This document shows, in pieces, positions 6,701 to 9,700 of a stretch of DNA of 64,000 bases (position 1 is its first letter; each line of letters starts with the position of its first letter). Under the pieces are notes generated by a model. The model did not search any database, was not told the origin of the DNA, and saw only the letters and a program-made list of their open reading frames with translations. The position numbers and the translations under genes are program-made. This stretch comes from Bolinopsis microptera (taxonomy: Eukaryota > Ctenophora > Tentaculata > Lobata > Bolinopsidae), in assembly GCF_026151205.1 (NCBI RefSeq), contig NC_087076.1:7418902-7482901 (forward strand), in the 5' to 3' direction.

Positions 6701-9700
6701 TTCAATGAGTATCACGTGTACTTTCTTGTGTTTTTGTACTGTCTCACTAAATATTTATTTAAGCTCAGCTCCAATGTCACACCTGTTGTACACTATATAA
6801 CACGTGTCTACACACCTTCAAAACGTGCGCTGAATTCACAGTATATGGTACACAATTTGATGTGAACAGCTGTTATAAATATCTAACATGTTATGAACAT
6901 TGATGAAGGCATTGGAAATGTTTTTGGGATATACTGAACTCATTAATAACACATTGCTATCTTATGTCACTACAAATAAATAGGATAACTTTTCAAACAA
7001 ACAAGGAACATGAGCATTGAGTTGATTAAGTAATTTTAGCATGTTAGTTGTCCTAATCGCAGAGGAATCCTTTAACCATACCGATAATCATCTTGATGAT
7101 GTCCATCTGTCTCTCCTCAACCTGACAATATTTATGTTAACAGATCATTTTTAACTTATATTAATAAATTATAGGTTGTCTATAATCTCATAATGATATT
7201 TCGACAGATTACTATATCTTGAATCTATCCACATAAACTAACCCAGTCTACCAAACCAATAAATCCTGACTAAACCCAAATATCGGGTAAACCCACCTCG
7301 ACTTCCACGACATCCATGCTGCAGATAAAACCTTTGACCATTTCCATTATCATACTGATCATATCACCCTGTCTCTCCTCGACCTCGAGGGGGGAGGCGA
7401 TACTCAGAGCCAGGACGGCAGCAAATACAGCGGCGAAATATTTCATCGTGAAGAAAGTGTGCAGTGTTTAAACTATTAGTAGAGAAACTTTAGATTGATA
7501 AGTTTGGGATTTGGAGAGGATTTTATAGTAGTTATGAGCCTCATGGTGTTACATTTATTGTGTTTTGGTACAATGGATTCGGAAGAAAAGTTGTTAAAGT
7601 TAGCATCTTGATCTAGACTTACGCCGCTGTGATTGTGAAAGTTTTTGTAAAACACCTGTTATTTTGATCAATTAACACCGATTTTCGCTGATTTAAAAAT
7701 ACCTAATAACCTGTGTTGTCTCTAGGCTAAAATACCTAATAACCAGTGTTGTCTCAAAAATGTGCGATATTTACCATGTTTTAGTGAGAACTACTCGATA
7801 TTATGCCAAAATTGGCAAGTTTGGTTAAAAATGATGGACTGTGATACTGAAATAGAATTATGTAATACTTTGTAAAGAAATCATACAATGTAAAACAAAG
7901 CAATATAGTCTATACCACAACCCCACAACTTCCTGACAACTTCCATTACAATACCCTGGAGATTTCATCACGTTTTGCTTAAACATACTAATTAATTTTA
8001 CTAATTACTAATTACAAAATTGTGGAGATGTAACGGGTCACGTTTCCCCAGGATGGAACCCACCGGCCCACAATGGCGGAGATGCGAGCCGGTAAAAGAA
8101 TGCCAGCAGCTGAGACCCCCAAGATTAAGACAGAGTTGGGAGATGGCCCTTCAGCCCTCAAGCTGGGTTGGATACAAGGTGTCCTGGTGAGATGTCTGCT
8201 GAATATTTGGGGTGTTATGCTGTTTATTAGGATCTCCTGGGTGGTCGGGAACGCGGGCGTTGGTAAGTGCTGAGCTGCGTGTACTTAGTTTGTAAATATA
8301 ACGGCATGTTGATAATGTGAACTGTTATTATCTGATTTAACCCGTATTCAAACTTAATTATCAAATTTATCTAATTAAGTGTAGAAATTAAAAACATTGT
8401 AGTATCATTAAAACAGCATGGTATGTGAAAATTAATTAATTAAATGTAACAGCCCTGAATTTCAGCGTGTGGGCTGGGTGTGGTTCTGCTCTCAGCGGTG
8501 GTTACAAGTGTTACCAGCATCAGTCTAGCTGCTATCTGTACTAACGGAGAGGTTAAGGGAGGTAAGCACCCCACGGCCTTTAATTCATATTTTACTAATT
8601 GGGAGAATTGAGGACATTAGGAGCAAATCAGTCACCAATATTGTCCGTCGAGCGATGTGGCCACGTTTAGATTAATTTATAGAGAAAGTTGTTCATTAAC
8701 GGAATGTAAATAACCATTCATTAAGGACTGATTTGACATGGCCATAAAGAGCCGGCTGATTTATTTACCGGTAACATCAAGCTGGATGTTAACGTATAAA
8801 ACAATATTGCCTGATCTTACTGCCAATACATGACATAATTAAGAGCAAGTCTCTCTTGTGAAGTACTTACATGTACGTAAATCCTATTAGTGCTGTCTGT
8901 ACAAGTAAGCGTGACAGGTTCACTATTTAAGAGAGGGGCCTGGAGCAAGGATTGTAACCTGGAGGGTGGAGGGTCTTATAGTGCTCCGGCTGATTCCCGG
9001 ATATTAGGGAAATTAAATGAAGATTAGTGTTTGTAATCTGTCTCCCCTATAGCTATCTGTAGATATGGCAGCGGTGGAGGGGAGACAGATATCAAGTTAT
9101 TGTTATTCTACGTGTTTCTCAAGTGCTATACTGTGTCAGTTCTACTTTAATGATATTATCTCTGTTTCAGGTGGGGCTTATTATCTCATATCAAGATCAC
9201 TTGGTCCAGAGTTTGGTAAGTTTTAAATCTGCTGTAAGCGTAATCCCAGAGTTTGGTAAGTTTATCTGCTGTAAGCGTAATCCCAGAGTTTGGTAAGTTT
9301 ATGTGCTGTAAGCGTAATATCCCAGAGTTTGGTAAGTTTATCTGCTGTAAGCGTAATCCCAGAGTTTGGTAAGTTTATCTGCTGTAAGCGTAATCCCAGA
9401 GTTTGGTAAGTTTATCTGCTGTAAGCGTAATCCCAGAGTTTGGTAAGTTTATCTGCTGTAAGCGTAATCCCAGAGTTTGGTAAGTTTATCTGCTGTAAGC
9501 GTAATATCCCAGAGTTTGGTAAGTTTATCTGCTGTAAGCGTAATCCCAGAGTTTGGTAAGTTTATCTGCTGTAAGCGTAATATCCCAGAGTTTGGTAAGT
9601 TTATCTGCTGTAAGCGTAATCCCAGAGTTTGGTAAGTTTATCTGCTGTAAGCGTAATCCCAGAGAGCCGGGAGCTCACTCACTGAACCGTTACTTGATAA

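Follow-up and report, generated by a model that had tools for sequence, protein, structure and literature searches.

A small two-exon gene, predicted to encode a secreted peptide built of two related modules, lies on the minus strand at positions 7053..7446 of the window, by which is meant the whole 64,000-nucleotide stretch of Bolinopsis microptera chromosome C5 analysed here. The locus is almost certainly a spliced coding gene, and it belongs to a real, small family that could not be assigned to any known one in the collections searched. Its reading frame, its phase-0 GT-AG splice and its pair of modules were found exactly where the original prediction had put them; the gene is real but is not the single gene then described, being one member of a dispersed family with paralogs on several chromosomes. 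The main claim is borne out by these paralogs in the type of signal peptide, the order of the modules, the splice position, the TATA spacing and the low dN/dS. The gene is organized as follows:

7446-7297 and 7121-7053, minus strand: two-exon gene of 50 + 22 codons (from the sequence)
7522..7527, minus strand: TATA box TATAAA, first base 81 bases 5' of the ATG
7297..7446, minus strand: coding part of exon 1, 50 codons, with signal peptide, acidic spacer, module 1 and short acidic tail (from the sequence and aligned paralogs)
7396..7446, minus strand: signal peptide, residues 1-17 (placed by eye; its start resembles those of the paralogs)
7321..7383, minus strand: module 1, 21 residues
7122..7296, minus strand: GT-AG intron, 175 bp, GTGGGT...TTGTCAG, phase 0
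7053..7121, minus strand: exon 2, 22 codons and stop, with module 2, Asp and TAG
7059..7121, minus strand: module 2, 21 residues, 15/21 identical to module 1

As read by eye, the signal peptide has Lys2, a hydrophobic run at residues 3-14 and Ala17 at position -1. The match between the two modules carries a BLOSUM62 score of 77, compared with a best score of 48 among 200,000 shuffles of one module (z = 8); at the DNA level, 47 of 63 positions are identical and 6 of the 12 differing codons differ synonymously. Eight polyadenylation hexamer variants were looked for up to 300 bases from the stop codon of the window gene, and none was present.

Several other features were observed in the window, the GC content of which ranges from 31 to 47% per 2 kb. 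Head-to-head with the peptide gene and approximately 0.6 kb from it, positions 8040-8267 (plus strand) gave a match to AA_permease that is below the cut-off (E 8.2e-5); this is probably an early exon of a transporter, and by eye it looks like a cation-chloride cotransporter. A cytochrome P450 of 488 residues is encoded in a single frame at 16103-17569 (minus strand), and two single-frame receptors of the rhodopsin family are present on the same strand at 26507-27502 and 59269-60339. At 42446-44226 (minus strand), one frame encodes an LDL-receptor class A repeat and a neighbouring frame a seven-transmembrane segment; these are perhaps pieces of an LDLa-type G protein-coupled receptor. Tandem arrays are found at 61904-63264 (65 bp x 21), 31978-32985 (56 bp x 18) and 12064-12895 (16 bp x 52), and a 257 bp unit is present twice at 52646-53156 with 99% identity. 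A 262-residue frame at 63187-63975 (minus strand), which overlaps the 65-bp array at the array's end, begins with what by eye is a likely signal peptide and gave no match against Pfam.

The genome of B. microptera has been reported to comprise 265 Mb on 13 chromosomes with a GC content of 38.5% (PMC11797021); in the 264.65 Mb searched here, these are C1-C13, of 15.2-26.2 Mb, and loci are named by chromosome. Counts of loci obtained from the genome searches are lower bounds. At least seven related reading frames were found, the window gene included, together with at least one relic; as other searches of the same genome, innexin genes gave at least 18 matches, and a COX1 search for a mitochondrial contig gave none. 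In addition to the window gene, the loci of the family are:

C10:12040402 (C10): close paralog, intron present
C3:10943130 (C3a): close paralog, intron present, ATG lost
C3:11874164 (C3b): close paralog, intron exactly absent
C13:14078200 (C13): close paralog, intron exactly absent
C3:6511519 (C3c): diverged member, phase-0 intron
C5:17928901 (C5b): diverged member, both modules, no intron, no TATAAA
C2:20683321 (C2): relic of exon 1, a fragment

Protein searches with the window gene recovered the four close paralogs with E values of 2.5e-12 to 3.7e-11, and C5b and C3c with E values of 0.048 and 1.05, respectively. The latter two are counted as members because their mature parts beat shuffled sequences, and C3c also because of its intron and its TATAAA: against the mature part of the window protein, none of 2000 shuffles reached the score of either; against C10, the score was reached by 0/2000 shuffles for C5b and 1/2000 for C3c, and against C13 by 11/2000 and 4/2000, respectively. 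C5b is the member of which we are least sure. Two copies, C3a without its ATG and the C2 fragment, are probably dead. A degenerate DNA pattern for M-V-K-G-F-x-C had 7 matches in 264.65 Mb, all in five family loci, while the reversed pattern used as a control had none in the same space; the pattern was built from the family itself, and the informative part of this result is the absence of matches elsewhere. A weak match at C11:10908300 (E 2.0) was not counted as a member, since no such gene was seen at that locus. At C1:22188043-22188180, a weak match (E 0.64) reads FLDGIVATARGFIC and contains GFIC; it may be chance, or else another module that has diverged very far, and it was not counted as a member.

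That the coding sequence is under purifying selection was indicated by dN/dS values of 0.10-0.23 in all ten pairs of the window gene, C10, C3b, C13 and C3a (Nei-Gojobori, whole coding sequence); C3c and C5b were too diverged to be included. Within the set of four close paralogs, the values were 0.16-0.23; those of the window gene against these four span 0.10-0.23 and are rough, the dS of 1.5-2.8 being saturated. When dN/dS was split by region, two signal-peptide comparisons and one mature-part comparison yielded no dS. Flanking identity was computed among the four close paralogs only, without the window gene, and was 0.80-0.91 from -110 to -1, 0.62-0.78 from -310 to -110 and 0.37-0.51 beyond -330; 3' of the stop it was 0.46-0.68 over the first 120 bases and 0.31-0.50 at 250-550 bases. 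The introns of C10 and C3a are identical at 74 of 154 positions. The duplication of the module had been taken to imply selection on it; selection is indeed present, as judged by dN/dS and the contrast between exon and intron, but duplication as such is no proof.

The window gene was also predicted to have its own TATA box, and the spacing of its TATAAA from the ATG proved to be common to the family, the motif lying at -80 to -86 in six of the seven loci, window included (-83 in C3c), compared with a background of 3.9% of randomly chosen window positions with TATAAA in -125..-70. It is absent at the family spacing in C5b, and outside the TATA area the upstream region of the window gene aligns poorly to those of its paralogs. 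AATAAA was found within 150 bases of the stop in C10 (at 38) and C3a (at 60) and not within that distance in the window gene, C13, C3b, C3c or C5b.

The intron between the modules occupies the same phase-0 position in the four intron-bearing genes (window, C10, C3a and C3c), in agreement with the phase-matched splice sites that had been proposed; its ends are GT-AG in C10 and C3a, and in C3c it interrupts at the point VE|VEER. In C3b and C13, the coding sequence continues without interruption, the intron being absent to the base, such that the DNA resembles spliced mRNA, and the junction in C3b, CTTCCGTTCGAC, is identical to that of C3a after splicing. With only 72 codons, the window gene might be thought a chance reading frame in non-coding DNA, but seven related frames, low dN/dS, shared TATA spacing and this exact absence of the intron in two paralogs render such a reading hardly credible, and the existence of the family makes it untenable as far as coding goes.

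C3b and C13 were rejected as plain retrocopies: their similarity to C10 and C3a begins approximately 290-330 bases before the ATG, so that the promoter with its TATA box is retained, and by eye the 260 bases that follow the stop contain no poly-A tail. Less probably, they could be copies of a longer transcript that started further upstream. The simplest account would be that the intron was lost through conversion with spliced cDNA and that DNA copying followed, in which case the germ line would have transcribed such a gene and spliced its RNA. C13 looks mosaic, its signal peptide being close to that of C10 (dS 0.12, dN 0) and its mature part to that of C3b (dS 0.15), seemingly pointing to gene conversion between chromosomes. 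The exact absence of the intron from two dispersed copies that keep their promoters is a tidy example from nature of how cDNA could mediate the loss of an intron.

The two modules would have arisen by an old internal duplication that preceded the spread of the family over the genome. The junction reads E|VEER in both the window gene and C3c, while module 1 of the window gene reads LE-VEER without an intron; our guess is that an ancestral intron preceded each module and the first was lost, because this would explain both. Repetition of the VEERQ motif was part of the original prediction, and both modules of the window gene carry it; it is not kept in module 2 of the four close paralogs, which starts FDNPM or FDNQM with no VEER. 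When C3c and C5b were compared with the window gene, C10 and C13, both scored highest with the window gene, which may for this reason have retained the older form. No fork in the family tree reached the support threshold, and two of its branches are long.

Searches for known relatives were negative in each collection. The seven members gave no significant match to Pfam-A (best E 0.041), the best score of the window protein being 13.3 bits against a cut-off of 24.5; two of the seven matched PF22861 (GEO12453p1-like) weakly at chance level (best E 0.057), and no kinship is claimed. Neither a single-sequence nor a profile search of the PDB returned an accepted match. The pattern occurred in 48 stretches of prokaryotic genomes and six of IMG/VR viral contigs, none of which was confirmed, plasmid records gave nothing at E 0.01, and phage records nothing useful (three matches, E 2 to 7). 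A text search of the literature for MVKGF returned no paper, and no matching paper was found on methionine-rich two-exon secreted families. The term undescribed, as applied to this gene, thus holds within the Pfam, PDB, prokaryotic, viral and plasmid collections searched. The published annotation may already have a model for the window gene, since this genome was annotated with RNA-seq and Iso-Seq (PMC10232365).

What the gene makes can be considered from the composition of its predicted products. Following a cut after residue 17, the mature products of the six members tested have pI values of 4.13-4.56 and exactly two cysteines; the translation of C3a has two cysteines too. The seven genes hold 14 modules, 12 of them distinct (those of C3b equal those of C13), with module ends placed by eye. 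In all 12, the largest hydrophobic moment was observed at 95-105 degrees per residue, and this amphipathicity exceeded shuffles at p < 0.05 in ten; the two modules of the window gene gave 0.054 and 0.090. The amphipathic helix that had been proposed is hence supported by periodicity across the family but is not significant for the window modules taken alone. On a helical wheel, the cysteine points towards the polar side.

Together, these properties suggest a secreted, disulfide-linked two-helix protein, a reading to which we would give about an even chance. Removal of the signal peptide would leave an acidic mature product of ~55 residues with two amphipathic helices, faced with Met, Ile and Phe, joined by a loop and each ending in one Cys. 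Pairing of the cysteines between chains would give a covalent dimer, presumably a four-helix bundle, with a hydrophobic core or a lipid-binding face; interchain pairing seems the likelier on geometric grounds, because the cysteines stand at the C-terminal ends of successive helices and an antiparallel hairpin would separate them. Secretory cells would then release the dimer, which would act outside the cell as a structural component, carrier or signal. A broader version of this proposal appears unlikely: that the family is restricted to comb jellies and covalently dimeric, acidic and two-helical, with a fold created by internal duplication; that it serves a secretory cell specific to the phylum (e.g., of tentacle or comb); and that its copies moved between chromosomes together with their promoters, in some cases through conversion with spliced cDNA.

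Other functions have to be weighed against the disulfide-linked protein. Typical membrane-active peptides are cationic. A secreted helical peptide that acts on membranes, in defence or in prey capture by secretory cells of the tentacle, would suit the succession of short signal peptide, acidic spacer and amphipathic helices with Cys, as well as the small, dispersed multigene family, but the tested mature products are acidic and the low dN/dS is not that of diversifying change; we regard this function as doubtful, and a cationic antimicrobial or cytolytic peptide was ruled out on charge in the six products tested. Among candidate genes of tentacle and colloblast, signal peptides were reported to be over-represented; 79 of the 189 colloblast candidates were ctenophore-specific, as were 46 of 165 tentacle candidates, the latter not an enrichment (PMC6278862); for a membrane-active peptide this is only a lead. 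Of similarly low probability is a neuropeptide-like precursor, in which cleavage at the acidic EVEER before each module would yield two similar peptides with Gln at the start, possibly as pyroglutamate, and their ends at or after Cys. Both window modules do follow VEER and start with Gln, and acidic as well as basic cleavage sites are described for peptide precursors of Bolinopsis mikado and Nematostella (PMC9525235). Against it, EER does not precede module 2 in C10, C3a, C3b or C13, modules of the window gene and the four close paralogs end in GF[ILV]C or GFLxC with no amidation Gly, and there is no resemblance to the mature comb-jelly peptides named in PMC9525235. With the Gly missing, and the cleavage site before module 2 missing in paralogs, an amidated precursor was ruled out. 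An adhesive, mucus or matrix component cross-linked through its two cysteines would accord with the even Cys count and the acidic, helix-forming, secreted design, but no Pfam domain was found, and we judge it improbable.

A gene of ~70 codons readily escapes notice, and many secretory cells of comb jellies are still unexplained. Probes and antigens for finding the producing cell, in a group argued to be the sister of other animals (PMC10232365), can readily be derived from a family whose promoter spacing is conserved, whose exon junction is known and whose modules are defined. So far, this looks like one more lineage-restricted family of secreted peptides, and the surprise is moderate.

Among known systems, uteroglobin and the secretoglobins are disulfide-linked dimeric helical secreted proteins with a four-helix subunit and antiparallel interchain disulfides. 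The present family is like them in its small products with two cysteines, predicted to be secreted and helical; it differs in having no sequence match to them in Pfam or the PDB and in a shorter product with two helix-like modules derived by duplication. Helical membrane-active peptides with acidic propieces share with it the order of signal peptide, acidic spacer and amphipathic helix, but its mature part is acidic rather than cationic. The amidated precursors described from Bolinopsis mikado and Mnemiopsis likewise yield short secreted products, through acidic or basic cleavage sites (PMC9525235); in contrast, the family represented in the window has neither the amidation Gly nor a conserved site before module 2, and is distinguished by two cysteines and hydrophobic, helix-like modules.
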